Made by a program: the position numbers and the translations under genes
Notes under the pieces: model-generated
What the model was told of the DNA's origin: nothing
Database searches by the model: none
The model's input: the letters and a program-made list of their open reading frames with translations, nothing else
From: Spirochaetales bacterium
GTDB taxonomy: Bacteria; Spirochaetota; Spirochaetia; Treponematales; Treponemataceae
Direction of reading: 5' to 3'
Length of the DNA: 40,542 bases
NCBI GenBank assembly: GCA_003246765.1
Contig: QKDA01000045.1
Coordinates: 1 to 40,542, forward strand
Shown here: piece by piece, positions 1 through 35,288 of the stretch
Layout: each line of letters starts with the position of its first letter
Numbering within the stretch: the stretch's first letter is position 1

Positions 1-594
1 CCTAACCCCCGCTTCCTTCATGAGGGCCCGTTCCTTGGGGTCCAGGTCGCGCACGCCGATGTAGCACACGTTCGCGGGGTCTACCTTGCGCGCGGGGCCG
101 TAGAAGCCCGTGAGCTCGGGAATGCCGAAGCCGCAGGAGGCCGCCAGGATCATGCCGTGGATGTTGCCCGAGGGGGTGGTATCGGTGGTGTTGAAGTCGC
201 CGTGGGCGTCTACCCAGAGCACGCCGAGCTTTCTGTCCCCCGAGGCATGGGCCGTGGATACCCCCGCCAGGGAGCCCAGGGCGATGGAATGGTCTCCCCC
301 GAGGATCAGGGGGAAGTCTCCCGCCCGGATCACCTTCTCTACCCTGGTAGCGAGCTCGCTGCAGGCGTCGATGATGGGCCCCAGGTGCTTGGCGTTGTCC
401 ACCGAGAGCTCTGAGGCGGGGTCTATGTACTCCTGGGGCGGGATCGATATGGGGGGAAAGAAGTCGTCCGACTCTATGCCGAGCCGGCTGAGCTTTTCCC
501 TGAGCCCCGCGAGCCTGATGGCCGAGGGCCCCATGTCCGCGCCGCGGCGCGACGCCCCGTAATCCAGGGGAATCTCGATAATCTGCACTTTCAT
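1..594 (-). CDS. rocF: Arginase (3' part beyond the window)
   Basis: Arginase hydrolyses L-arginine to ornithine and urea with a two-Mn2+ centre in the cytoplasm. Only the first 198 residues are present because the gene runs off base 1; the family is usually about 300 residues. Visible metal-site motifs are GGDHSIALG (residues 99-107), DAHGD (129-133) and SGNIHGM (142-148), followed by IGVRDLDPKE. This set points to arginase rather than agmatinase. The second Asp-rich metal motif would lie outside the window. The ATG at 592-594 overlaps the TGA of the MATE gene (591-593), so the two are probably translationally coupled. It is the last visible gene of a minus-strand cluster with argA, carA and carB, which suggests linked arginine or urea metabolism. 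Family assignment is firm; the physiological role is inferred. Confidence 0.93.
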   Translation of the reverse strand, partial: MKVQIIEIPLDYGASRRGADMGPSAIRLAGLREKLSRLGIESDDFFPPISIPPQEYIDPASELSVDNAKHLGPIIDACSELATRVEKVIRAGDFPLILGGDHSIALGSLAGVSTAHASGDRKLGVLWVDAHGDFNTTDTTPSGNIHGMILAASCGFGIPELTGFYGPARKVDPANVCYIGVRDLDPKERALMKEAGVR

Positions 595-1958
595 TCCGTT
601 ACTGCCTCCTGGGCGTGCTCGAGGGCGATATTCCGCACCCAGCGCCCGGTTTTAAGCTGCCAATCGGCTATCGCTATTTTGACGAAATCGGTGGTCTTCA
701 CGACGGCGAACATCGCGATGGGCCCCAGGCCGGTAAACGCCGCCAGGAGAAAGATTCCCGGAAGGAAGAGGGAAAGGTTCACGCTCACGTCCACCCATAG
801 CCCGAATTTCGCGTCTCCCCCGGAGCGGGCGGTGGCGAACTGGGCGTTCAGGTAGGTCCAGGCGGGCATGTAGCAGGCGATTACCAGGAGCATGTTCCGG
901 GTCACCGCCCGGGACGCGTCGGAGAGGTTTCCGAAGACTACCGGGATGAGGGCTACCGAGAGGACTTCCAGGACGGCGACGCAGCGGGCCTCCCTCTGAG
1001 CCCGGTCAAGCTCGTCCCGGCCGAGGGTTCCGCCCACGGTCACGCCGATGGATGTGTGGATGCCGTTGAAGACCAGGAAGAAGAGGTTCGCTATCGCCCA
1101 TCCCGCGGACATGCCCGACACGATCTCCGAGCCCCCCCGTCCGTTGTACACCGCGGTCATGACGGTCTCCGTGAGCACCCAGGACATTTCCCCCGCGAAA
1201 AGGGCCCCGGACTTCCTCAGCATGGAGGCGAAGAGCTTGAGGTTCACCTTGAAAAGCTCCGCAAGGGGCACCCAGAAGTCGGGCTTCACCCGTTTCGCGT
1301 AGACGAGGAAGGCGGTCATCTCGACGAGCCGGGCTATCACCGTGGCGATGGCGGCGCCCCGCACCTCGAGCCTCGGGGCCCCCAGGTTTCCGTAGATGAG
1401 CACCCAGTTGAAGAAGGTGTTGACCAGGGTAGAGGCCACGGAGATGACCAGGGGCGGCCTCACCATCCCTATTTCCCGGAAGGAGGAGCCGATCATCATG
1501 GAGATGACCATGGGCACGAAGGTCCACACGATGATGGAGAGGTAGGCTTCCGCCTGGGCGCTGATGGCCGCCCGCTCGGTGTTCGAGTTGAGGAGGAGCC
1601 CGATCAGCTCCCGGGGAAAGGCCAGGCTCAGGAAGATCACGACGGCGGTGAGGGCAAGCCCCCCGAGGATCTTGAAGCGGAAGGTTTGCCTCATGCCCGC
1701 GGCGTCCTTGGACCCGTTAAACTGGGACATGAACATGGCCCCCGCCCCTGAAAGGGTCATGAGGGCCACGAAGAACACGAAGAGGAGCTGGTTGAGAACG
1801 TTCACGCCGGACATCTTCACGTCGCCGAGGCCGGCGACCATGAAGTTGTCGATGAGGGACACGAGGTTCTGGAGCAGGGACTGGAGCATCACCGGGATCG
1901 CCAGGGCCAGGGCCTGGCGGTAGAATCCCGGACTGCCTATGAGGGAGCGCTTTTCCAT
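591..1958 (-). CDS. MATE family efflux transporter
   Basis: A 455-residue integral membrane protein with about twelve hydrophobic segments, the usual size of MATE (NorM/DinF-type) drug or metabolite/cation antiporters. The N-terminus (IPVMLQSLLQNLVSLIDNFM) is the characteristic first MATE helix, and a second similar half begins around residue 240, giving the usual pseudo-twofold layout. The substrate cannot be read from sequence. It starts 32 bases after the carB stop and overlaps the arginase start by four bases, so it probably belongs to the same transcript. A TATAGT box just upstream (about 1969-1974 on the minus strand) could be a weak internal promoter. Its place between carB and arginase may mean it exports a product or intermediate of the pathway, but this is speculative. 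Confidence 0.9.
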   Translation of the reverse strand: MEKRSLIGSPGFYRQALALAIPVMLQSLLQNLVSLIDNFMVAGLGDVKMSGVNVLNQLLFVFFVALMTLSGAGAMFMSQFNGSKDAAGMRQTFRFKILGGLALTAVVIFLSLAFPRELIGLLLNSNTERAAISAQAEAYLSIIVWTFVPMVISMMIGSSFREIGMVRPPLVISVASTLVNTFFNWVLIYGNLGAPRLEVRGAAIATVIARLVEMTAFLVYAKRVKPDFWVPLAELFKVNLKLFASMLRKSGALFAGEMSWVLTETVMTAVYNGRGGSEIVSGMSAGWAIANLFFLVFNGIHTSIGVTVGGTLGRDELDRAQREARCVAVLEVLSVALIPVVFGNLSDASRAVTRNMLLVIACYMPAWTYLNAQFATARSGGDAKFGLWVDVSVNLSLFLPGIFLLAAFTGLGPIAMFAVVKTTDFVKIAIADWQLKTGRWVRNIALEHAQEAVTE

Positions 1959-1990: not shown

Positions 1991-4900
1991 CTAGAGATAC
2001 TCCTCCCGGCTCTTTACCTCGAGGCCCCGCGTCTTGTACCACTCCAGGGCGTCGGTGAACTGCTTTGCGATCTTGATGTTGGTGATCAGGGGGATGCGGT
2101 AGTCCACGCTCATCCTGCGGATGAGGAAGTCGTTCTTGAGCTCCGTCTCGCGGTTGTTCTTGGGGATATTGATTACCAGGTCCACCTGCCGCTCCCGAAG
2201 GGCGTCGGCGATGTTCGGCTTCTTGTCTTCCAGGGGCCAGGCCAGGGCCGCGGCCTGGATTCCGTTGTTCTGGAGGAACCGGGCGGTGCCGCTGGAGGCG
2301 AGAAGCTCGTAGCCCATGTCGATGAGCTTTCGGGCGCTCTCGATGAAGTCGACCTTGTCCTCGATGGGGCCCGTGGAAAGGAGGATCTTGCCCTTGGGAA
2401 TCCGGAAGCCCGTGGAGAGCATGGCCTTCATGAAGGCGTCCCGGACGCCCCTCCCGATGCAGCCGACCTCGCCGGTGGAGGCCATTTCGAGGCCCGCCAC
2501 GGGGTCCGCCCCCCGGAGGCGGGAATAGCTGAATTGGGCAGCCCTGACGCCTACGTGGTCGAAGTCCAGGCGGGAACCGTCCACTCGCTCCACGGGGGCC
2601 CCGAGCTGGGCGCGGACCGCCATGTCCGCCATGTCTATCCTGAAGACCTTGGAGCAAAAGGGAAAGGACCGGCTGGCCCTCAGGTTGCATTCGATAACCT
2701 GGATGGCCGCGCTCTTGGCCAGGAAATGGATGTTGAAGGGGCCCGTAATCTCCAGGGCCTTGGCTATCTTCCGGGCGGTTTTCTTGATCGCCTGGGCGGT
2801 GGAAAGGTAGATCCTCTGGGCCGGCAGCACCACCGTGGCGTCTCCCGAGTGGACCCCCGCGTTCTCCAGGTGCTCGCTGATGGCGTACACGAGGATCTCC
2901 CCCTTGTTCGCCACCGCGTCGATCTCGATTTCCTTGGAGTTCTCCACGTACCGGGAAAGCACCGCGGGGTTCTCGAGGCTCACCTGGGCGTTTTTGGTAA
3001 GGAAGGCCTTGAGGCTGGCCTCGTCCCAGGCGACGCTCATGGCCGCCGCGGAGGCGGCCTGGCCCGGCCTGATGAGCACGGGGTAGCCCGCGGAATCCGC
3101 GAAGTCGTGGGCCTGGGGAAGGCTCGTCACCTCGGCCCATTCGGGCTGCCGGATTCCGAGCTCGTCCAGGAGGGCGCCGAATTTGTTCCGGTTCTCGGTC
3201 CTGTCGATATCCACCGCCTGGGTTCCGAGAATGGGGATTCCCGCCCGGGAGAGGGGCACCACCAGGTCCGTGGCGAGCTGGCCGCCGTAGGAAACGAGGG
3301 CCCCGTCGGGCCGTTCCGACTCCCAAATGTCCAGGATCCGTTCCAGGGATAGTTCCTCGAAATAGAGGCGGTCCGCCTGGCCGGGGTCCGTGGAAACCGC
3401 CTCGGGGTTGCAGTTCACCAGGATGGAATGGCGCGAGAGGGAACGCATGGTCTTGAGGGCGCTCACGCACAGCCAGTCGTGCTCGATGCTGCTTCCGATA
3501 TGGTAGGGCCCCGAGCCGATCACCAGGGCCCCCCGCTCGGAGGGCTTCACGTCGTCGGTGACCCCGTTGTAGGTCAGGTAAAGGGCTCCCGTCCGGGCGG
3601 GGAATTCCCCCGCCACGGAGTCGATGAGCTTGGTCACGGGCCGTAAGGCCAGCTCCTTGCGGAGGGCGCGGATCTTGTCGCCCCGGGTCTTAACGCAGGC
3701 GGCTACCTGGTCGTCGGAGAAGCCCGCTTTCTTGGCCCGCAGGAGGAGGTCCCTGCCCGGGAGCTCCTCCCCGTCCCGAAGGGCGGCCTCGATTTCCCTG
3801 ACCCGGTCCATGGCCACGATAAAGGCCCGGTCGATGCGGGCGTATTTCCTGATGCGGTCGGCGGTCCAGCCCTCCTGCAGGGCGGAGTAGACCGCGTAGA
3901 CCCGAAGGTCCGTGGGATTCCTCAGGGCGTCCTTCACGTCCCGGAAGGCGTGGCCGTGGCAGGCTAGTCCCGGCGAGGCGGGGTCCGCCATGCGCAGGGC
4001 CTTCTGGAGGGCTTCCTCGAAGGTGCGGCCGAAGGCGAGGGCCTCGCCGACGGACTTCATTTCCGCCCCGATATGGCGGTCCACGGCGCTGAATTTGCCG
4101 AGGTCCCAGCGGGGAACCTTGACCGCCACGTAGTCCATGGCGGGCTCGGTCCCGAGATGCGTGGTTCCCGTGAGGGGGTTCACCGTTTCCGAGAGGGAAA
4201 AGCCCAGGGCGGCGCGGGCGGCGAGCCAGGAAAGGGGAATGCCCGTGACCTTCGACGCGAGGGCCGTGCTCCGGGAGGAGCGCAGGGTGGCCTCAAAGAC
4301 CCTAAAACCGGAGCCCTCGGGGTCCACCGCGAAGCGCACGTTGGCCTCTCCCACGGCGCCCAGGGCGCGGACCGCGCGGAAGGCCGCCTCCCGGAGGGCT
4401 TGAAGCTCCCCGTCGGTAAGGGTTTGCACCGGGGCGGCCACGATGGATTCTCCCGCGTGGATGCCGATGGGATCCACGTTTTCCAGGGAACAGGCCGCCA
4501 TGCAGTTGTCCATGGCGTCCCGGAGCACCTCGAGCTCGATTTCCTTCCATCCCCCGAGCCATTCCTCCACCCGGAATCCCCCCGCCTCGGCCCCCATGCG
4601 CCCGCAGTACTCCTGGAGCTCTTCCCGGTTCTGGCAGACTGCCCCGCCGTCCTCGGTGTTCGGCCGTTCGGAACGGACCATGACCGGATACCCGGAGTCT
4701 TCCGCGGCCCTCAGGGTTTCCGCGGCGTCGGCGCAGGACCGGGAGCGGGGAACCGGAACCCCGGCTCCCTCCATGGCCTTCAGGAAGTCGCCCCGGCGGG
4801 CGGATCGGTCCATGGCGGCCAGGGACGTGCCGAGAACCTGCACGTTGTGGCGTTCCAGTATGCCCCGCTCCTCGAGTTCCAGGGCGCAGGCGAGGGCGGT

Positions 4901-5185
4901 TCGCCCCCCCACGCTGGCCAGGAGGGAGTCGGGCTTTTCCTTCTCGATCACCTTGGCGGCGAATTCCGCCGTTACCGGCAGGAAGTAGGTGGCGTCGGCG
5001 ACCCCTTCGGAGGTTTGGGGCCCCGTCATGTTGGGGTTGAGGAGGATGGTGCGGATTCCCTCGGCCTTGAGGGCTTTCAGGGCCTGATAGCCCGCCAGGT
5101 CCGACTCGCCGGACTGGCCGATTTTTTGCCCCCCGGCGCCGAGGACAAGGACGGTGCGGGGCGTTACGATGCGGTATTCGTTCAT
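1991..5185 (-). CDS. carB: Carbamoyl phosphate synthase large subunit, divergent, eukaryote CPS-I/III-like
   Basis: Predicted 1064 residues, normal for CarB, with N-terminal ATP-grasp half (about 1-400), oligomerisation region (400-550), second ATP-grasp half (550-935) and a C-terminal MGS-like regulatory domain. The family makes carbamoyl phosphate from bicarbonate, ammonia and two ATP. The C-terminal half reads like animal synthetases: AISEHLENAGVHSGDAT, IECNLRASRSFPF, EMASTGEV, KAMLSTGFRIP and DLVINIPKNN. Conserved catalytic positions are changed. In the first half Q285 is Arg284 and N301 is Thr300 (E. coli numbering first), and the glycine-rich loop after Arg171 is SERPNTEDGG. In the second half the Q829 position is His and the loop is GQAASAAA. 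The start at 5185 was chosen because its ATG overlaps the carA stop; the frame stays open 57 codons further but that part overlaps carA and looks non-coding. It may be a functional divergent enzyme or a repurposed paralogue. Confidence 0.9.
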   Translation of the reverse strand: MNEYRIVTPRTVLVLGAGGQKIGQSGESDLAGYQALKALKAEGIRTILLNPNMTGPQTSEGVADATYFLPVTAEFAAKVIEKEKPDSLLASVGGRTALACALELEERGILERHNVQVLGTSLAAMDRSARRGDFLKAMEGAGVPVPRSRSCADAAETLRAAEDSGYPVMVRSERPNTEDGGAVCQNREELQEYCGRMGAEAGGFRVEEWLGGWKEIELEVLRDAMDNCMAACSLENVDPIGIHAGESIVAAPVQTLTDGELQALREAAFRAVRALGAVGEANVRFAVDPEGSGFRVFEATLRSSRSTALASKVTGIPLSWLAARAALGFSLSETVNPLTGTTHLGTEPAMDYVAVKVPRWDLGKFSAVDRHIGAEMKSVGEALAFGRTFEEALQKALRMADPASPGLACHGHAFRDVKDALRNPTDLRVYAVYSALQEGWTADRIRKYARIDRAFIVAMDRVREIEAALRDGEELPGRDLLLRAKKAGFSDDQVAACVKTRGDKIRALRKELALRPVTKLIDSVAGEFPARTGALYLTYNGVTDDVKPSERGALVIGSGPYHIGSSIEHDWLCVSALKTMRSLSRHSILVNCNPEAVSTDPGQADRLYFEELSLERILDIWESERPDGALVSYGGQLATDLVVPLSRAGIPILGTQAVDIDRTENRNKFGALLDELGIRQPEWAEVTSLPQAHDFADSAGYPVLIRPGQAASAAAMSVAWDEASLKAFLTKNAQVSLENPAVLSRYVENSKEIEIDAVANKGEILVYAISEHLENAGVHSGDATVVLPAQRIYLSTAQAIKKTARKIAKALEITGPFNIHFLAKSAAIQVIECNLRASRSFPFCSKVFRIDMADMAVRAQLGAPVERVDGSRLDFDHVGVRAAQFSYSRLRGADPVAGLEMASTGEVGCIGRGVRDAFMKAMLSTGFRIPKGKILLSTGPIEDKVDFIESARKLIDMGYELLASSGTARFLQNNGIQAAALAWPLEDKKPNIADALRERQVDLVINIPKNNRETELKNDFLIRRMSVDYRIPLITNIKIAKQFTDALEWYKTRGLEVKSREEYL

Positions 5186-6279
5186 TCGGTTATCCCTCCG
5201 TTGCGCAGGAGCTTGAGAAAGTCGTCGTAGAGAAAGTCCGTGTCCCGGGGCCCCGGGTTTCCCTCGGGGTGAAAGAGAACCCCCGTGATGAGGCCCTTTT
5301 TGGCGGAGAAGCCTTCTATGGAACGGTCGTTGTCGTTCAGGAACAGGGGAGTCCACCCCGCCGGCAGGGAGTCGTCCCGGATGCCGTAGCCGTGGTTTTG
5401 GGCGGTCACGTAGCAGCGCCCGTTTTCCAGGTGCACGCAGGGAACCGCGGAGGATCGGTGCCCGTTGCTCATGCGGTAGGCCGCAGCCCCGCCGGCAATT
5501 GCGAGAATAACCGCTCCCTGTCCGGTGGCGAACACCGGTTTCCCGCTGTCGATCGCCTTTCGGAGGATCTGGACGGTCTTGTCGCAGGAGGTCGGGTCCC
5601 CGGGCCCCCCGGATACCATGACGGCGTCGAAGGGTTCGTCGTTAAAGTCGTGGGTACAGGGCACCCTGACTACCGTGGTGTCCTCTGCCGAAAGCCGCCT
5701 GACCGCGGAGAGCCGGGCGCCGCAGTCCACGAGGACAACCCGTTTGGGGCCCTTCCCGTAGGTAAGGGTCTTTTTTACCGAGACATGGGAGGGCTGATTG
5801 TGGGTTGAGGAGGAGCTGAAGGACACCTCCCGGGTGCCGCTCACGAGGATCTTCGCCCTCATGGTGCCCCGGAGCCTCAGGCGCTGGATGAGGGCCCGGG
5901 TGTCTATACCGTGGATGGCGGGAACCTGCTGTTTGCGCAGCCATTTCGAGAGGGTTCGGGAGGCGGAGTGGTGGGTGGTCAGGTCAGCGTAATCCGCCGT
6001 CACAAGCCCCGCCGCCTGGGCCGAGAGGGCCTCGTAGAGGGCGGGAAAGCCCCAGGGATCGGTTTTGTCCTCGCACACGCCGGTAGCCCCCGCGAGGGGC
6101 TGGGAAAGGACCAGGATGCATCCCTTCAGGGCGGGGTCCGTAAGCAGGGTCGGAAGCCCTGCGGCGCCGGTATAAAAGACGATCTCTCCGGAAACGGAGC
6201 TTTCGTGACCAAAGGATACTCCCTCGAATTCGGTACCGTCTTCAAGGATTATGCGCGCTGCGGGTGAGGTTTCCTGCAC
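5182..6279 (-). CDS. carA: Carbamoyl phosphate synthase small subunit lacking the glutaminase cysteine
   Basis: A 365-residue CarA with the N-terminal small-subunit domain (1-150) and a class I glutamine amidotransferase domain (about 178-358). The GTG start at 6279 has AGGAGG seven bases upstream. Classical CarA uses a Cys-His-Glu triad to release ammonia from glutamine. Here the segment aligned with FGICLGHQ is FATGQGAV, so the nucleophile is Gly253 and the His of GHQ is also lost; His337 and Glu339 (HPE) remain. The replacement resembles the GISTGN segment of vertebrate ammonia-dependent CPS I. Other stretches are also CPS I-like: ILEDGTEFEGVSFGHESSVS, TAQNHGY and LPAGWTPLF. Glutamine hydrolysis is therefore not expected, though the frame is intact and coupled to carB by a four-base overlap. 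The protein may act as a structural subunit. Confidence 0.93.
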   Translation of the reverse strand: MQETSPAARIILEDGTEFEGVSFGHESSVSGEIVFYTGAAGLPTLLTDPALKGCILVLSQPLAGATGVCEDKTDPWGFPALYEALSAQAAGLVTADYADLTTHHSASRTLSKWLRKQQVPAIHGIDTRALIQRLRLRGTMRAKILVSGTREVSFSSSSTHNQPSHVSVKKTLTYGKGPKRVVLVDCGARLSAVRRLSAEDTTVVRVPCTHDFNDEPFDAVMVSGGPGDPTSCDKTVQILRKAIDSGKPVFATGQGAVILAIAGGAAAYRMSNGHRSSAVPCVHLENGRCYVTAQNHGYGIRDDSLPAGWTPLFLNDNDRSIEGFSAKKGLITGVLFHPEGNPGPRDTDFLYDDFLKLLRNGGITE

Positions 6280-6354: not shown

Positions 6355-7677
6355 TCAGAAATTCCTGATCAACAGGCGCGACCCCCGCTTTTCGCTCCAT
6401 TTTTCCCTTCTTTTTGCGGGAAGGAGGCTTATTTCTGCGGGAATAAAGCCGAATCGCTCGAACCAGTCGGCGGTTTGGGTGGTGAGCACGAATACCGCCT
6501 TGTTTCCTGCCTCCCGGGCTTTCGCGATGAGCCGTTCCATGAGCTCCGGGCCGATCCCCATGTGGTTGTAGGCCTCGTCCACCGCGAGCCCCGCGATTTC
6601 CGCCATTCCCTCGGCGTAGCCGTGGAGGGCGGCGCAGGCCCGGATGCCCCCGTCAATCTCGTAGATGACGTAGTCGCGAAAGGTGAGCTCCAGCTCCTCC
6701 TGGCTGCGGGCCAGGAGAATGCCCCGTTCCACGAAGGGGTTCATCAGGGAAAGGACCGCCGGAATGTCGTCCCGGGTCATGGGCCGGTAGGCGCCGTAGT
6801 TGTCGAGGTAGATCATGGTGCCCGAGCCGAGGTCCGAGAAGATCTCCGCCGGGAGTACCCCGTCCACGTCGCCGTCGAGGATGTGGGTTCGGGTAACCCC
6901 CTGGCGGCAGGCTTCGCCCCCCCGCTCCAAAAGGTCCGCCAGCTCGTCGGGGGGGCAGTTGGGCTTGTCTACCTCCCGGTTGAGGCGTATGAAGTCGGGA
7001 ATCTCCCCGGCGGATATGGCGGCCATGCGGCCTTCCGGCGAAAGGGCAGCCCCGGGGGGCATGTTGTAGTCGTCCACGGAGATGGTGGAGCCGGAGCCCA
7101 GGAAAAAGAGCTTGTCCGCCTTGAGGGCCACCGCGGTCGCCACGGCGAGCTCCGTGGAGGAGATGTTGTAGGGCCGTCCCGCGGCGGTCCAGCCGACGCA
7201 GGGGAGTATGGGAATGAAGCCGTCTTCCAGCACCGCCAGGAGGGAGTCGAGCTGGATCTTGTCCACGACACCGGCGCTGCCGTAGTCCACCCCGTCGATG
7301 ACGCCCCGGCCCCGGGCGCGTACCCAGTTGCCGATCACGGCGGTAATCCGTTCCGCCGATAGCCGGGTCATTATGCGGTTGGACACGTCGAAGGCGGCCA
7401 TCTTCACGAGGTTCATGCCCTCCTCGCCGGTGACCCGTACCCCCGCTATCTTGCGCCATTCCACCTTCCAGGAGTCCAGCACCCGGTCTATGTGGTTGGC
7501 CGCCCCGGGCACGATGACGATGCGGATTCCCGTTTCCCGGATGAGGGCGAGGTCGTGCATGTGGCTCGCGAAAAGGGGAGAGTCCACCACGTCGTCGTCG
7601 ATGCGGACCACCAGGGTGGAACCCTTGAACTTTTTGATGTACCGGATAACGTCCCGGATCCGCTCGGTCTGTATCAT
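6355..7677 (-). CDS. argA: N-acetylglutamate synthase, ArgA type (kinase-like plus GNAT domains)
   Basis: Amino-acid N-acetyltransferase that makes N-acetylglutamate from acetyl-CoA and glutamate, the first step of ornithine/arginine synthesis. The length of 440 residues is close to E. coli ArgA. Residues about 20-280 form an amino-acid-kinase-like domain (VIVPGAANHIDRVL; ELAVATAVALKADKLFFL), which in this family usually binds feedback arginine. Residues about 290-425 are a GNAT domain (EIAGLAVDEAYNHMGIGPEL, FVLTTQTADWFERFGF). ATG at 7677 gives the full kinase-like domain. The gene lies upstream of and co-directional with carA/carB, separated by a promoter-like region. In animals the same product is the obligatory activator of CPS I, so its neighbourhood with a CPS I-like CarAB is notable. 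The family call is secure; the regulatory link is inferred. Confidence 0.92.
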   Translation of the reverse strand: MIQTERIRDVIRYIKKFKGSTLVVRIDDDVVDSPLFASHMHDLALIRETGIRIVIVPGAANHIDRVLDSWKVEWRKIAGVRVTGEEGMNLVKMAAFDVSNRIMTRLSAERITAVIGNWVRARGRGVIDGVDYGSAGVVDKIQLDSLLAVLEDGFIPILPCVGWTAAGRPYNISSTELAVATAVALKADKLFFLGSGSTISVDDYNMPPGAALSPEGRMAAISAGEIPDFIRLNREVDKPNCPPDELADLLERGGEACRQGVTRTHILDGDVDGVLPAEIFSDLGSGTMIYLDNYGAYRPMTRDDIPAVLSLMNPFVERGILLARSQEELELTFRDYVIYEIDGGIRACAALHGYAEGMAEIAGLAVDEAYNHMGIGPELMERLIAKAREAGNKAVFVLTTQTADWFERFGFIPAEISLLPAKRREKWSEKRGSRLLIRNF

Positions 7678-28030: not shown

Positions 28031-29107
28031 TTACTCTGAACGATTCTTCATGAGGATCTCAACGAGACGGCTGTTGATGTAGTAATTGAAGCGACCAGCC
28101 TTTTCCTTACGAAGGAAACCCGAGTCCGCGAGCGCGTCAAGGTATTTGGCGGCCGTGAGGCGGGAAACGCCGAGGTCTCTTTCCACGAATTCGATCTTTG
28201 TGTAGGGGTGGAAGAAGAGGTTTTCGACGAGCTCCTGACTGTAGAAGCGATGACCGTTCTTGATGCGGAGCCTGTAATCCTCTAGGGCCGACGAAATGGA
28301 GTCAACCAGCTCCAAGGTACCGCGCGAAGTCGTCTCCACCGCATCGAGGACGTAGAGAATCCAGGCCTCCCAGTCCCCCGTATCCCGGACAGAGCGCAAT
28401 CCCCGGTAGTACTGATCCTTGCTGCGGATGAAGTGGCGGCTCAGGTACAACACCGGAATATCCAGGAGTCCCTTCAGCACGAGGTACAGGACATTGAGAA
28501 TGCGCCCCGTCCGCCCGTTGCCGTCGTAGAAGGGATGGATGCTCTCGAACTGATAGTGGATGACCGCCATCTTCACGAGGGGATCAGCGTCGAGAAGGGA
28601 ATCCTCGTTGATGAAGCGTTCGAGATTGGCCATGAGATCGACGATGGCGTCGTACTCCTGAGGCGGTGTGTAGACCACTTCGCCCGTGCGGTCATTGACG
28701 AGGTTGGTCCCGGGCAGACGCCGGAAGCCGGCCCGGTTGCGCTCGAGTTCTTCCTGTACCCGGACCAGGTCGTTCGTCGTGAGAATGCCGCGATCGCGGA
28801 CGATCTCGAAGCCGATACGAAGGGCTTGGGCATAATTCCTGACCTCTTTGGCCGCGAGGCCGGCGGCGGGAGATGTTTCAAGGTCTACCCGAAAAAGCTC
28901 GTCCTGCGTCGTTACTATGTTCTCAATTTCTGAGCTGTCCTTGGCTTCTTGGAGCGCAAGGGTGGAAATGAGGATGCCCTGATTCGGAATCGCACGGCAA
29001 CGTCCTTTCAACTCGGCCAAGAAGCGATGCGCCCTCGCCGTTTTCTTGAGCACCGCAGGCGTCTCAAGGGACACTGCAGGAGGAAGTTTGGGTAAATCAT
29101 CAGCCAT
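28031..29107 (-). CDS. Fic family protein (putative AMP-transferase), class II
   Basis: A 358-residue Fic protein. The catalytic motif HPFYDGNGRTGR is intact at residues 191-202, so it can probably transfer AMP (or another nucleotide) to target proteins. The N-terminal inhibitory helix motif S58-SEI-E62-N63 matches the (S/T)xxxE(G/N) signature of class II Fic proteins that hold their own inhibitor. The C-terminal part (about 280-355) is a winged-helix-like domain (LGVSRLTAAKYLDALADSGFL). GGAG precedes the ATG. It is divergent from the type ISP restriction enzyme, and a damaged copy of its 3' end lies at 38183-38352. It may act in the island as a toxin or in defence; targets are unknown. Confidence 0.9.
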   Translation of the reverse strand: MADDLPKLPPAVSLETPAVLKKTARAHRFLAELKGRCRAIPNQGILISTLALQEAKDSSEIENIVTTQDELFRVDLETSPAAGLAAKEVRNYAQALRIGFEIVRDRGILTTNDLVRVQEELERNRAGFRRLPGTNLVNDRTGEVVYTPPQEYDAIVDLMANLERFINEDSLLDADPLVKMAVIHYQFESIHPFYDGNGRTGRILNVLYLVLKGLLDIPVLYLSRHFIRSKDQYYRGLRSVRDTGDWEAWILYVLDAVETTSRGTLELVDSISSALEDYRLRIKNGHRFYSQELVENLFFHPYTKIEFVERDLGVSRLTAAKYLDALADSGFLRKEKAGRFNYYINSRLVEILMKNRSE

Positions 29108-29351: not shown

Positions 29352-32300
29352 ATGACCGCCCTTCAACGCATTCTCAGCCAGTATCGCGACGTATCGCTCT
29401 CGGAACGGGAAAAGGGCACCTATTTTGAGCGCCTGATGCAGGATTACCTGACCGTTGAGCCCGCCTACGCCGATTTATACGACCAGGTCTGGATGTACTC
29501 CGACTGGGCGCGGGAACAGGGCTTTGACGCCCGCGACACCGGAATAGACCTCGTGGCCCGCACCTTTGAGGGCGAGTTCCACGCGATACAATGCAAGCTC
29601 TACGACGAGGGGTATACCCTCCAGAAGGGCGATATCGACAGCTTTTTTACCGCTTCCGGTAAAAAACCCTTCACCCGCAGGATTATCGTCAGCACCACCA
29701 ACCGCTGGAGCGTGCACGCGGAAGCGGCCCTAGAAGACCAGCAGCCGCCGGTCACCAAGATAGACCTTCGCTCCCTCGAGGACTCGGTCATCGACTGGAG
29801 CCGGTACGAGACCGGGCGCGCCGTGGCGAAAAAGGCGAAAAAGACCCTGCGGCCGCACCAGACGAAGGCGATAACGGAGGTCCTGAAGGGCTTCGAGACC
29901 GCCGACCGGGGCAAGCTCCTCATGGCCTGCGGCACGGGGAAAACCTTCACGAGCCTCAAGCTCGCCGAGCGAATGGTAGGGAAGGGCGGGCGCGTCCTCT
30001 TCTTGGTTCCCAGCCTCAACCTCCTTTCCCAAACCCTTACCGAGTGGACCCAGGAAAGCGCCATTCCGCTCCATAGTTTCGCCGTCTGCTCCGACTCCGA
30101 CGTGGGCAAGAAAAGGCTCGACGACGACATAGTCCCCACTTTAATTCACGAACTTCAGTACCCCGCCACCACCGACGCCAAATCCTTGGCCCGGGAAATC
30201 GCCGCCCGCGCCGACGGAGAACACCTCACCGTGGTCTACTCCACCTATCACTCCATCGCGACGGTGAGCGACGCGCAACTCCTTTATGACCTCCCCGCTT
30301 TCGACCTCGTCGTCTGCGACGAGGCCCACCGAACCACGGGAGCGACCTTCGGCGACGACGACGAAAGCGCCTTCGTCCGCGTGCACGACGATTCGTATAT
30401 CCGGGCGAAAAAGCGGCTCTACATGACCGCCACGCCCCGCATTTACGGCAACGCCGCCAAGGCCAAGGCCGAGCAAGACAGCATCGCGCTTTGCTCCATG
30501 GACGACGAAAGCCTCTACGGCAAGGAACTGCACGTCATCACCTTTTCCGAAGCCGTCCGGCAGGACCTTCTGGTGGACTACAAGGTTCTCGTGCTCGCGG
30601 TGGAGGAAAGCCACGTGAGCCGCCGCCTGCAGGACCTCCTCGCCGGCGAGGACAACAACCTGAAGGTAGACGACGCCGCGAAGATCGTGGGCTGTTGGAA
30701 GGCCCTCGCCAAGCAGGGTCTCGCGGAGGAACTGAACGGCGACGAAGAGCCCATGAAACGCGCGGTCGCCTTTTGCCAGGTGATCGAACCGGGTAATACC
30801 CGCGCCAAAACCCACAAGGTAAGTTCCAAGAACATCGCGGGCATTTTCCAGCGCGTGGTGGAAGCCTACCAGGAAGCGGAAGAGATCGAACCCGCGGCTC
30901 GCCTCCGCTGCCAGGCTCGGCACGTGGACGGCTCCATGAACGCCAGCGAAAAGCAGGAAAAACTCGATTGGCTCAAGGCCGAACCGGGGCCGGAATCCGA
31001 AGCCTACCCCGACCGCGATACCGGAGCCGACCGTGATCCCGCCGCCCCCGGCGAGGACCTGCTCGCCGCCTCCCCGCACCCCGGCGCGGCTAACCAGCAA
31101 CATGCCGACTCTACGCCGCAGCCCACCTGCCGCATCCTCTCGAACGTGCGTTGCCTTTCCGAGGGCGTGGACGTTCCCGCCCTGGACGCGGTGCTCTTCC
31201 TCACCCCGCGCAATTCCCAGGTGGACGTGGTGCAGTCCGTGGGACGCGTCATGCGCAAGGCCCCCGGCAAAAAGCGGGGCTACGTGATCCTTCCGGTCGT
31301 GATCCCGGCGGGCGTGGAGCCCCACGACGCGCTCAACGACAACAAAACCTACGCCGTGGTCTGGCAGGTGCTGCAGGCCCTCCGCTCCCACGACGACCGC
31401 TTCGACGCCATGATCAACAAGATGGACCTGGAGCTCAACCGCTCAATCCTTTCCAAAATGGAAATAGTCGCCGTGAGCGACAAGGCCCCCAAAAAGCGCG
31501 AGCGCTCCTACGCGGACAAGCGCGATGGCCTCTCCGGCCCCGGCGGCCGCTCGGGCTTCACCATCGGCACGACCGCCCCCGGCCGCCCGGACTCGGAAGC
31601 CCAGGGCGAGCTCCAGTTCGAGATCGGCGAGATAGAGCGGGCCATTTACGCCAAGGTCGTCCAGAAATGCGGCAACCGCCACCACTGGGAAGACTGGGCC
31701 AACGACATCGCCAAGATCGCCCGCACCCATATCGACCGCATTACGGGCATTCTCGAAAACCCCGAAAACATACGCGAGCGCGAGGCCTTCGCCTCCTTCG
31801 CCAACGAGCTCCGCGACGACCTCAATGACAGCATTACCGATTCCGAAGTCATCGAGATGCTCGCCCAGCACCTCATCACCAAGCCGGTCTTCGACTCCCT
31901 CTTCGCGAGCTACAGCTTCGCGAGTCACAACCCCATCAGCCGCGCCATGCAGAAGGTCCTGGACACCCTCCACGAGCACCGCCTGGAAAAGGAGGCGGAT
32001 ACCCTCGAATCCTTCTACGCCTCGGTGCGGGAGCGGGCGGCGGGAATCGAGAACGCCGCGGGCAAGCAGCGCATCGTGGTGGAGCTCTACGACAAGTTTT
32101 TCCGCAACGCCTTCCCCCGCATGACCGAGCGCCTCGGCATCGTCTACACCCCGGTGGAGGTGGTGGACTTTATCCTCCATAGCGTGAACCGGCTCCTCTC
32201 CCGCCATTTCGGCCAAACCCTCGCGAGCGAGGGCGTGCATATCCTGGACCCCTTCACGGGCACGGGCACCTTCATCACCCGCCTCCTCCAGAGCGGCCTC

Positions 32301-34448
32301 ATTCCGCCCTCCGACCTTCCGCGCAAGTACCAAAACGAGATTCACGCCAACGAGATCGTCCTCCTCGCCTACTACATCGCCGCCATCAATATCGAGGCGG
32401 TGTATCACGATTTGGTGGGGGGAAGTCTCCCCCTTGAAGAAAGCCGCGGCCCTGCGGGTCCGGGTCTTTCTTCATCCCCCTCTGCGGGGGACACCCCCGC
32501 AACGCCCCCGGCCTACGTTCCCTTTCCGGGCATCCTCCTCACGGATACCTTCCAGCTCTACGAAAAGGAAGACCTCGTGAGCGCCCTCATGGTAGACAAT
32601 TCCGAGCGCCGCAAGCGTCAGAAAGCCCTGGACATCCGCGTAATCATCGGCAACCCGCCGTATTCGGCGGGTCAGGAAAGCGCCAACGACAACAACGCCA
32701 ACGTCGCCTATCCGAGCCTCGACGAGCGCATCCGTGACACCTACGCCAACCGTTCCAAGGCGACTAACAAGAACGCCCTTTACGACAGCTATATCCGCGC
32801 CATCCGCTGGGCCTCGGACCGGGTAGGCACGAGCGGCATCGTCGGCTTCGTAACCAACGCCGGCTTCGTGGAAGCCAACACCGCCGACGGCCTCCGCCAA
32901 TGCCTGGCGGAAGAATTCTCGAGTCTCTACATCTTCCACTTGCGGGGGAATCAGCGCACCCAGGGCGAAACCTCGCGTAAAGAAGGTGGCAAAATTTTCG
33001 GCTCCGGCAGCCGCGCCCCAATCGCCATTTCCTTTTTCGTCAAAGACCCTGCCTCCGCAGAGAAAGGGCAGATTCATTTTTACGACATCGGCGACTACCT
33101 GTCCCGGGAAGAAAAGCTTGCCAAGATCGCGGAGCTCGGAAGCGTCGCGGCAATCGAGGCTGTTGCCGGTTGGCAAAAGATAATCCCCGATTCCCACGGC
33201 GACTGGCTCCGCCAGCGCGACGACTCCTTCAGCGAGTTCATCGTGCTTGGCGACAAGGGCGGGGATGAAAAGAAGGTTCTGTTTGAGAATTACTCGAATG
33301 GTGTCAAAACAAATGCAGATGTCTGGATGTATAATTCAAGCAAAGAATTGCTCTCATCGAATATGAGGACGTATATAGCAACGTATTGTCAGGAAGTAGA
33401 GAGATATAAAAATGCAGATTCAAATGAAACATTTGAAAATTTTGTTTCAATGGATTCCACAAAAATTAAATGGCACAGTGGTATAATACCCAAAGGAATT
33501 TCAGGAAAAACATCTCCGTTTAATCCAAATGCATTTCAAAAAAGCATCTACCGGCCTTTTGAAAAAGAATGGTTATACTTTGATAATTTCTACGTACAGA
33601 GGGTTGCACAAATGCCTCGCATATTCCCCGACGCTGCTGCGGAAAACCGGGTTATTTGCGTAACCGGTGTTGGTGCCCGCTCTTTCTCGACTCTTATTAC
33701 TGACACACTGCCGTGTCTTGATAACATCGAAAAAGGTCAATGCTTCCCGCTCTATCTCTATGACGAGAGTGCTGCCGGTTCGGAGCAGGGGGGATTGTTT
33801 GACGAGGCGCCGGCGGAGCGGAGGCGGAGGCCGGCGATTACAGAAGCGGGGCTTGCGCACTTCCGCGCCGCGTATCCGGGAGAGAAGATTGAGCGCGAGG
33901 ATATCTTCTACTACATCTATGGACTGCTCCACTCCCCGGATTACCGCGAACGCTATGGCGACAACCTTTCCAAAGAGCTTCCCCGCATCCCCTGCGTAAA
34001 AAAGGCGGGCGACTTTTGGGCCTTCAGCACGGCCGGAAGAAAACTCGCCGAACTGCACATCGGCTACGAAAAAGCCGCGCCCTGCCCGCTTATCACCGTG
34101 GCCATTGGCCCGGGAGCGCCAGAGGAGCCGGAACAACGGTACCGCGTGGAAAAAATGCGCTACGGCAAAACCAAAGAGACACTTGCCTACAATAGCTGGA
34201 TCACCCTCTCGGGCATCCCGCTCGACGCCTACGATTACGTCGTCAACGGCAAAGCCGCCCTTGACTGGGTGGTGGAACGCCAGTGCGTCAAAACCGACAA
34301 GGACTCCGGAATCGAAAGCGACGCCAATCGCTGGGCAACCGAAACCGTCGGCGACCCGCGCTACCCCCTCGACCTTTTTTTGAGAGTCGCCACCGTCAGC
34401 CTTGAAACCAATAGGATTGTGGCGGGATTGCCGGGGATGGAGATATAG
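29352..34448 (+). CDS. Type ISP restriction-modification enzyme (LlaGI-like single polypeptide)
   Basis: A 1698-residue fused nuclease-helicase-methyltransferase. Residues 1-150 form an Mrr-type nuclease (Asp66 in DTGIDLVA, QCK at 80-82). A superfamily 2 helicase follows, with Walker A ACGTGKT at about 192-198 and CDEAH at about 324. An adenine methyltransferase follows, with motif I DPFTGTGTF at about 966 and NPPYSAGQ at about 1100. The C-terminal part is the target-recognition region. These enzymes cut foreign DNA after head-on translocation between two sites. Two insertions lengthen it relative to LlaGI (about 1570): an acidic Pro-rich stretch near residues 545-595 and a palindrome-derived one near 1023-1055. 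DNA at 33270-33640 (residues 1307-1430) falls to about one third GC, which suggests an exchanged recognition module. GGAG precedes the ATG. The BRO-N gene follows after three bases. Confidence 0.93.
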   Translation: MTALQRILSQYRDVSLSEREKGTYFERLMQDYLTVEPAYADLYDQVWMYSDWAREQGFDARDTGIDLVARTFEGEFHAIQCKLYDEGYTLQKGDIDSFFTASGKKPFTRRIIVSTTNRWSVHAEAALEDQQPPVTKIDLRSLEDSVIDWSRYETGRAVAKKAKKTLRPHQTKAITEVLKGFETADRGKLLMACGTGKTFTSLKLAERMVGKGGRVLFLVPSLNLLSQTLTEWTQESAIPLHSFAVCSDSDVGKKRLDDDIVPTLIHELQYPATTDAKSLAREIAARADGEHLTVVYSTYHSIATVSDAQLLYDLPAFDLVVCDEAHRTTGATFGDDDESAFVRVHDDSYIRAKKRLYMTATPRIYGNAAKAKAEQDSIALCSMDDESLYGKELHVITFSEAVRQDLLVDYKVLVLAVEESHVSRRLQDLLAGEDNNLKVDDAAKIVGCWKALAKQGLAEELNGDEEPMKRAVAFCQVIEPGNTRAKTHKVSSKNIAGIFQRVVEAYQEAEEIEPAARLRCQARHVDGSMNASEKQEKLDWLKAEPGPESEAYPDRDTGADRDPAAPGEDLLAASPHPGAANQQHADSTPQPTCRILSNVRCLSEGVDVPALDAVLFLTPRNSQVDVVQSVGRVMRKAPGKKRGYVILPVVIPAGVEPHDALNDNKTYAVVWQVLQALRSHDDRFDAMINKMDLELNRSILSKMEIVAVSDKAPKKRERSYADKRDGLSGPGGRSGFTIGTTAPGRPDSEAQGELQFEIGEIERAIYAKVVQKCGNRHHWEDWANDIAKIARTHIDRITGILENPENIREREAFASFANELRDDLNDSITDSEVIEMLAQHLITKPVFDSLFASYSFASHNPISRAMQKVLDTLHEHRLEKEADTLESFYASVRERAAGIENAAGKQRIVVELYDKFFRNAFPRMTERLGIVYTPVEVVDFILHSVNRLLSRHFGQTLASEGVHILDPFTGTGTFITRLLQSGLIPPSDLPRKYQNEIHANEIVLLAYYIAAINIEAVYHDLVGGSLPLEESRGPAGPGLSSSPSAGDTPATPPAYVPFPGILLTDTFQLYEKEDLVSALMVDNSERRKRQKALDIRVIIGNPPYSAGQESANDNNANVAYPSLDERIRDTYANRSKATNKNALYDSYIRAIRWASDRVGTSGIVGFVTNAGFVEANTADGLRQCLAEEFSSLYIFHLRGNQRTQGETSRKEGGKIFGSGSRAPIAISFFVKDPASAEKGQIHFYDIGDYLSREEKLAKIAELGSVAAIEAVAGWQKIIPDSHGDWLRQRDDSFSEFIVLGDKGGDEKKVLFENYSNGVKTNADVWMYNSSKELLSSNMRTYIATYCQEVERYKNADSNETFENFVSMDSTKIKWHSGIIPKGISGKTSPFNPNAFQKSIYRPFEKEWLYFDNFYVQRVAQMPRIFPDAAAENRVICVTGVGARSFSTLITDTLPCLDNIEKGQCFPLYLYDESAAGSEQGGLFDEAPAERRRRPAITEAGLAHFRAAYPGEKIEREDIFYYIYGLLHSPDYRERYGDNLSKELPRIPCVKKAGDFWAFSTAGRKLAELHIGYEKAAPCPLITVAIGPGAPEEPEQRYRVEKMRYGKTKETLAYNSWITLSGIPLDAYDYVVNGKAALDWVVERQCVKTDKDSGIESDANRWATETVGDPRYPLDLFLRVATVSLETNRIVAGLPGMEI
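32418..32501 (+). repeat. In-frame palindromic element inside the restriction gene
   Basis: Three consecutive hairpins occur in about 85 bases: GGGGGA/TCCCCC (32418-32433), GAAGAAAG (32436-32443) with CTTTCTTC (32466-32473), and TGCGGGGG/CCCCCGCA (32483-32501). They encode the low-complexity stretch between YHDLVGG and YVPFPGILLTD, a junction that is short in the related enzymes I recall. This looks like an inserted palindromic repeat that kept the reading frame. Similar G5/C5 hairpins lie at 38113-38154. Confidence 0.5.
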
Positions 34449-34451
34449 GAA

Positions 34452-35288
34452 ATGGCAAACGAAATCAACCCGGTAGACTTTGAAAACCAACCCGTACGGC
34501 GGTTCTTCGACGAAACCGAAGAAAAATGGTACTTCTCGGTGATTGACGTGGTAGCCGCCCTCACCGCGAGCGTCAACCCCCGCGACTACTGGTTTAAAAT
34601 GAAAATTCGCGTAAAAAGCGAAGATGGAATTGAGTTGTCGACAATTTGTCGACAACTGAAATTGCCTTCTTCCGACGGAAAAAAGTATGCTACCGATTGC
34701 GCAGACGTACAGGGCCTGTTACGGATCGTCCAGTCCATACCGTCCCCAAAAGCGGAGCCATTCAAGCAATGGCTTGCCAAAGTCGGTTATGAACGCATAC
34801 AGGATATGAGCGATCCCGAGCGATCGCTTGATCGTGCTCGGGAATACTGGCAAAAGCACGGGAGAAGCGAAAAGTGGATCCAGCAGCGCATGATGGGGCA
34901 AGAAACCCGGAATAAGCTTACCGATTACTGGAAAGAACACGACATTACCAAAGAAAGCGAATACGCCATCCTGACCAATATCATCCATCAGGAATGGAGC
35001 GGGCTTACCGTAAAGGGGCATAAAGACCTGAAGGGACTCAAGACCCAAAATCTGCGCGACCACATGAATGAGGCGGAGCTCATTTTTACCGCACTGGCAG
35101 AACTTTCCACCAGGCAAATAGCCGAAAGCGTCGACGCTACCGGCATGGCGGAAAACGCGGAAGCCGGGACAAAAGGCGGAAAGATCGCCAGAAGGGCGCG
35201 TACGGAACTCGAACAAAAAACGGGTAAAAGCGTGGTAACCGGCGAGAATTTCCTGCCGCCCAAGGAACGTAAAAAGAAAATAGAGTGA
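34452..35288 (+). CDS. BRO-N/phage antirepressor-like protein
   Basis: A 278-residue protein with an N-terminal BRO-N domain (residues about 10-120: RRFFDETEEKWYFSVIDVVAALT; PSPKAEPFKQWLAKVGYERI) and a C-terminal region rich in charged residues (KGHKDLKGLKTQNLRDHMNEAEL). Proteins of this layout are frequent in phages and mobile islands, where BRO-N domains bind DNA; there is some similarity to DinD. It starts three bases after the restriction enzyme stop, so it is co-transcribed and may regulate that gene. A 23-bp palindrome lies inside its coding region (34634-34656). GC is near 50%, lower than the core genes. Confidence 0.8.
   Translation: MANEINPVDFENQPVRRFFDETEEKWYFSVIDVVAALTASVNPRDYWFKMKIRVKSEDGIELSTICRQLKLPSSDGKKYATDCADVQGLLRIVQSIPSPKAEPFKQWLAKVGYERIQDMSDPERSLDRAREYWQKHGRSEKWIQQRMMGQETRNKLTDYWKEHDITKESEYAILTNIIHQEWSGLTVKGHKDLKGLKTQNLRDHMNEAELIFTALAELSTRQIAESVDATGMAENAEAGTKGGKIARRARTELEQKTGKSVVTGENFLPPKERKKKIE
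34634..34656. repeat. 23-bp perfect palindrome inside the BRO-N gene
   Basis: An 11-bp arm GTTGTCGACAA, one central T, and its exact reverse complement. Each arm contains the 10-bp palindrome TTGTCGACAA, so two dyads are nested. It may be a protein binding site; its place in a coding region argues for caution. Confidence 0.6.

Follow-up and report, generated by a model that had tools for sequence, protein, structure and literature searches.

Analysis of a 40,542-nt stretch of DNA (contig QKDA01000045.1 of assembly GCA_003246765.1, Spirochaetales bacterium, Treponemataceae; here called the window) revealed a second pair of carbamoyl phosphate synthetase (CPS) genes, here named carA2 and carB2, which we regard with moderate confidence as a pseudo-CPS that is retained for its allosteric module and probably serves arginine synthesis as a regulatory partner. 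The host genome harbors two CarA and two CarB genes, and an intact carAB, with the CLGHQ motif and intact ATP sites, lies on another contig (C48), which makes the pair in the window the second copy. From the sequence, we infer that CarAB2 would lack CPS activity and may have a regulatory role. Its ancestor would have been a glutamine-type CPS of the human-CPS1-like bacterial clade; CarA2-CarB2 would no longer be able to produce ammonia from glutamine or to phosphorylate bicarbonate, and selection would keep the allosteric module of CarB2, which comprises the C-terminal domain together with the C-half core. CarB2 putatively binds an effector of the arginine pathway, and CarAB2 may act on ArgA, whose gene would be co-transcribed, or on the live CarAB in the same cell. 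We consider the locus of moderate-to-high interest because of the inverted conservation of CarB2, the link to N-acetylglutamate (NAG) synthase, and the parallel losses described below. A search of the open-licence literature, partly with narrow queries, turned up no account of a pseudo-CPS or of a spirochaete CarA without the Cys.

The carA2 gene (5182..6279, minus strand) is an open frame for a CarA-like protein of 365 amino acids with the Pfam domains CPSase_sm_chain and GATase. Its product scored 295.3 bits against TIGR01368, below the cut-off of 307.35, and passed NF009475. A first-pass annotation of the window had reported a Gly codon in place of the glutaminase nucleophile Cys. This was confirmed: codon 253 reads GGA (5521..5523, minus strand), the frame stays open on either side, and in our alignment the residue falls on the Cys of CLGHQ or CLGNQ in all active relatives compared (23/23). 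All 12 CarA2 orthologues carry Gly at this position. A sequencing error is ruled out since these orthologues come from independent assemblies, one of them of an isolate. The same annotation had pointed to a substitute Cys elsewhere in the domain as a possible objection. None was found across CarA2; four columns (186, 232, 281, and 289) have Cys in at least half of the CarA2 proteins, most of the 23 active relatives share these Cys, and none of these residues is therefore a replacement.

Two further motifs are retained in the window's CarA2, as had been claimed: GGPGDP of the amidotransferase fold (5593..5610, minus strand), read in the translation, and HPE (5263..5271, minus strand), which contributes the His and Glu of the catalytic triad. 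Among the orthologues, the triad Glu is found in 12/12 (in G006 read from fragment L098) and the triad His in only 5, being absent from the other 7. The His of GHQ, whose absence had also been noted, is not the triad His and not catalytic, and most of the 23 active relatives have Asn there. With Gly in 12/12 CarA2, the Cys-His-Glu triad of glutamine-dependent CPS (CPS II) is incomplete, and the usual hydrolysis of glutamine is excluded, as stated earlier, because the nucleophile is gone. CarA2 thus has an inactive glutaminase domain, which is a trait of CPS I. In human CPS1, the Ser of GISTGN aligns with Gly253 of CarA2, and Ser is described as the replacement of the nucleophile Cys in PMC4655335 (section 8). 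Ala256 is fixed in all 12 CarA2, and the elbow G-x-G-A shows 69% conservation among them versus 48% in the stretch of the GATase domain before it.

The adjoining carB2 (1991..5185, minus strand) overlaps carA2 by 4 bases and encodes a CarB-like protein of 1064 amino acids that passes TIGR01369 (1150 bits; cut-off, 1027) despite damage at both ATP sites. For comparison, 23 active CarB from three groups were used (CPS1-like proteins, intact CarB from the genus itself, and the lone third CarB described below); the catalytic roles of the loop, Gln, Glu, and Asn positions are presumably those of the E. coli enzyme, from which we assigned them. In the N-half, the glycine loop of the ATP site (4640..4675, minus strand) is degenerate, reading RSERPNTEDGGA versus RVAYALGGAGSG in active relatives, with the Gly pair 177-178 lost in 12/12 CarB2. 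The metal-ligand Gln at residue 284 (4334..4336, minus strand) is Arg in 12/12 CarB2 and Gln in 23/23 active CarB, and the Asn metal ligand is also lost in the window's copy. In the C-half, alignment showed RPGQAASAAAM (3038..3070, minus strand) at the ATP loop, where active relatives have RPSYVLSGAAM, and His at residue 820 (2726..2728, minus strand) in place of the metal-ligand Gln. Among the 11 CarB2 that cover the C-half loop, PSYV-x-SG-x-AM is retained in four (G007, G008, G009, and G011) and missing in the window, G001, G003, G004, G005, G006, and G028. The carbamate-phosphorylating half is eroded in the window and most relatives. Only G007, G008, and G009 combine an intact loop, Gln, and ExNxR, and the retention of every checked C-half motif in these three is a counterpoint to the pseudo-CPS reading. 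By class, CarB2 lacks the N-half ATP site of a CPS II and the window's copy also the C-half one; the two intact ATP sites of a CPS I are likewise not found. An AlphaFold2 model of CarB2 retained the CPS fold (mean pLDDT, 86.9; pTM, 0.89), with the two former ATP loops, residues 176-178 and 710-714, among six stretches of pLDDT <50. Since the input alignment held active relatives, the predicted fold says little on ATP binding.

Of the 12 genomes of the genus, 11 carry orthologues of carA2-carB2, as does a sister genus (Brucepastera parasyntrophica RmG11, a complete genome of an isolate); as the genome sample was centred on relatives, such counts are not phylum frequencies. An intact carAB coexists with carAB2 in the window's genome and at least eight others of the 12-genome genus. 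In G011 (99% complete, 160 contigs), an intact carAB was searched for and only carAB2 was found; this genome has argG, argJ, and two genes of the ATCase/OTCase family, and the N-half of its CarB2 shows the same losses as the others. Either the intact carAB is unassembled in G011 or carAB2 still works there; if the gap is not assembly-related, carAB2 would be catalytic in this species, or carbamoyl phosphate would be obtained otherwise. In Brucepastera, the intact-type carAB (L046, G028:C1:897000-908000) is interrupted in both genes as deposited, and the uninterrupted pair is the dead-looking carAB2. The interruptions may be assembly errors, as the one-contig genome is rated 88% complete. Four genomes of the genus (G001, G010, G007, and G008; loci L097, L099, L100, and L101) harbor a third, lone CarB with intact motifs. 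Where its flank lies on the contig, no CarA was found beside it, and in G010 no other CPS gene was found.

The gene order at the locus is argA-carA2-carB2. The argA gene (6355..7677, minus strand), which encodes NAG synthase (TIGR01890, 290.0 bits; cut-off, 202.85), lies 75 bases upstream of carA2, and the adjacency that the first-pass annotation had proposed to check holds in 12/12 CarA2 loci. Downstream of carB2, a MATE transporter gene (591..1958, minus strand; Pfam MatE) is present in the window and follows carB2 in all seven genus loci checked that extend that far, and is missing after carB2 in Brucepastera. ArgA scored above the cut-off in 75 of 100 genomes of the family. At 13 argA loci in other genera, no carA or carB homologue was detected directly beside argA; at one of them (L136), a partial CarB-like frame lies at a distance of 2.6 kb. 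In G010, which belongs to the same genus, argA directly precedes the MATE gene, as it also does in G015 of another genus. This indicates that carAB2 is absent from G010 and, with argA present there, that the pair is not essential to ArgA. The motifs of the window's ArgA resemble those of unlinked ArgA in the family, and the lack of a clear change between the two is a counterpoint to a partnership with ArgA. Seven positions that split linked from unlinked ArgA were considered as a sign of such a partnership and rejected; G010 has the linked state at all seven without carAB2, so they track ancestry. Elsewhere in the window, inspection by eye showed a 1698-aa restriction-modification/helicase-like ORF (29352-34448), preceded by a Fic-like ORF (28031-29107) and followed by a KilA/Bro-like ORF (34452-35288), perhaps a defence island.

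We then compared CarAB2 with known systems. The allosteric (MGS-like) domain of CarB2 (1994..2470, minus strand) has 7/7 universally invariant residues in all nine CarB2, and its best PDB match is the corresponding domain of human CPS1. Vertebrate CPS1 (PDB 5dou, 5dot, and 6uel) is the nearest solved sequence of both subunits, with 968 bits for CarB2 (709 to E. coli CarB) and 292 bits for CarA2 (142 to E. coli). It is also the nearest fold: the top PDB match of the CarB2 model was ligand-bound human CPS1 (TM 0.94 over the query), with a similar TM for E. coli CPS. Both systems have lost the glutaminase nucleophile Cys, and NAG synthase, the partner enzyme of CPS1, is also the putative partner of CarAB2. 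Of the NAG pocket, the Trp, Asn, Pro, and one Thr position are conserved in CarB2. In an alignment to human CPS1, using its numbering and the pocket residues named in PMC4655335, Trp1410, Asn1437, Pro1439, Thr1394, and Arg1453 are kept, Thr1391, Thr1443, and Asn1449 are altered to Ser, Arg, and Asp, respectively, and Arg1371 has no clear counterpart. Conservation of this site is not taken as proof of a NAG sensor, since specific residues differ. In contrast to CPS1, CarA2 and CarB2 are encoded by two unfused genes, have Gly instead of Ser, and have lost the two ATP sites with which CPS1 is active. With bacterial CarAB (CPS II; E. coli, PDB 1bxr and 1c30), CarAB2 shares subunit make-up, gene order, and fold (TM 0.94), but its glutaminase and carboxyphosphate half lack the catalytic residues. 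The closest full-length relatives are the intact CPS1-like CarAB of Spirochaetota, Bacteroidota, and others (L061-L064 and L074-L083). The spirochaete ones (L061-L064) have C-terminal allosteric motifs in common with CarB2; unlike CarAB2, the whole set has an intact Cys and ATP sites, and no argA was found adjoining. At another locus (L047, G114:C29), a carA broken over several frames adjoins a CPS1-like carB that is intact. For an inactive paralogue maintained as the partner of an enzyme in its own pathway, there is a precedent in Pseudomonas putida, where, according to a title cited in PMC6022934, an inactive dihydroorotase is needed for aspartate transcarbamoylase assembly; protein and pathway differ, and a physical partner of CarAB2 is only inferred.

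A more specific proposal, which we hold to be possible but doubtful, is that the CPS1-like allosteric domain of CarB2 senses NAG or arginine and controls ArgA, and that ammonia-dependent CPSs of the same order arose at least twice by Cys-to-Gly changes. If CarB2 does control ArgA, this would be the reverse of the vertebrate urea switch, in which NAG synthase controls CPS1.

Alternatively, carAB2 could be a decaying, functionless relic that is redundant beside a carAB that replaced it and bound to be lost, which is unlikely in view of its conservation. Such a relic would agree with the clean absence of the pair between argA and the MATE gene in G010 and with dN/dS values above those of the intact copy: 0.14-0.17 for carA2 and 0.13-0.20 for carB2, compared with 0.05-0.10 for intact carA and 0.05-0.08 for intact carB (NG86, three pairs each). 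These values are nevertheless well below 1, frames are open in every copy read, down to 50% identity, and the new residues Gly253, Ala256, and Arg284 are fixed in all. Thus, both carA2 and carB2 are under purifying selection. Moreover, compared with the intact CarB encoded in the same genomes, CarB2 shows an inverted pattern of conservation across its domains, as seen from mean pairwise identities among nine CarB2 that could be read as a single piece (out of 12 species; G002, G009, and G011, in which CarB2 is split, were omitted) and eight intact CarB. The allosteric domain is more conserved in CarB2 (79%) than in the intact paralogue (70%), and the C-half core is similar (79% versus 83%), whereas the lids have diverged, with 33% versus 92% in the N-half and 48% versus 80% in the C-half. 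Likewise, dN/dS of carB2 between the window and G004 was ~0.06 for the allosteric domain and C-half core and 0.19-0.29 for the lids (NG86). The pair has thus lost catalytic residues with fold and gene kept by selection, as in a pseudoenzyme.

The conserved C-half core, kept as well as the allosteric domain, would also fit a half-enzyme, in which the C-half alone acted in the manner of a carbamate kinase, phosphorylating carbamate or generating ATP from carbamoyl phosphate, and later lost this activity in several species. Although the intact C-half loop, Gln, and ExNxR in G007, G008, and G009, beside an N-half that is dead in all, point in this direction, we judge it decidedly unlikely: the window, G001, G003, G004, G005, G006, and G028 are without the C-half loop, and the copies in the window and G004 are under purifying selection. 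The AA_kinase family is too broad to identify a carbamate kinase by itself. There is little probability, too, that the pair was re-purposed as an ATP-grasp or amidotransferase enzyme for a new substrate, with Arg284 in place of the metal site. Arg284 and the G-x-G-A elbow are indeed fixed in all CarB2 and CarA2, respectively, but the lids that close over ATP are the least conserved parts and vary between species, and a new enzyme should conserve them.

Finally, an ammonia-dependent CPS like vertebrate CPS I, in which the glutaminase is dead and CarB2 makes carbamoyl phosphate from free ammonia, is very improbable despite human CPS1 being the nearest solved relative, carAB2 being the sole CPS found in G011, and two other spirochaete lineages with the same Cys-to-Gly change keeping an intact CarB, as the N-half Gly pair and metal-ligand Gln are lost in 12/12 CarB2, which blocks ammonia-dependent synthesis too, the C-half loop and Gln are lost in the window, and an intact carAB exists in the window's genome and at least eight others of the genus. 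It had been the leading view of the window's copy and was set aside once CarB2 was read. The CPS I analogy of the first-pass annotation, which had considered CarA only, holds for the lost nucleophile and for human CPS1 as the nearest solved relative of both subunits, and fails for a working ammonia-using enzyme, given the loss of the CarB2 N-half ATP loop and metal ligand in 12/12; it misfits the window's copy and fits two other spirochaete lineages.

These lineages emerged from a survey of 129 distinct CarA rows, in which the nucleophile position was Cys in 104, Gly in 21, and a gap in 4. A CarA tree was built from the 122 rows of >250 residues that hold the nucleophile column, with the trait columns removed (a quick tree with SH-aLRT support only). 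The 20 Gly rows on it require three changes, and well-supported branches force all three: one in the CarA2 clade, one in the genus g4 (G033, G053, G059, G065, G071, G077, and G083), and one in G130 of another family (f5). In g4, CarA has lost the triad His in 7/7 and has Lys for the triad Glu in 5/7; in G130, the triad His is Tyr. CarB of g4 keeps the N-half loop in 7/7 and further N-half motifs in the six that extend over them, and CarB of G130 keeps all checked motifs. No second CarA was found in the g4 genomes or G130, each of which gave a single CarA match (L145, L146, L147, L152, L156, L158, and L160 in g4; L144 in G130). Judged by their sequences, the CarAB of g4 and G130 are predicted to be ammonia-dependent CPSs like vertebrate CPS I, and they are better candidates for this than CarAB2 of the window. 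The independent losses of the same Cys are a bacterial parallel to the change behind vertebrate CPS I.

For the window's pair, CarB2 passes curated annotation rules as a functional CPS, and metabolic models of these bacteria would consequently count a probably dead enzyme. If CarAB2 is regulatory, a CPS would here have become a control protein next to NAG synthase, which would offer a natural means to probe the extent to which the CPS1 allosteric module can function by itself.

As a minor observation, CarB reaches a length of about 1410-1440 amino acids in the genus g4 and in G012 (g2) (L145, L146, L176, L177, L179, L059, and L058; by length and a shared C-terminal end). A scan of one of these, L145 (1864-6189), showed a fusion of a diaminopimelate epimerase (DapF) domain to the C terminus of CarB.
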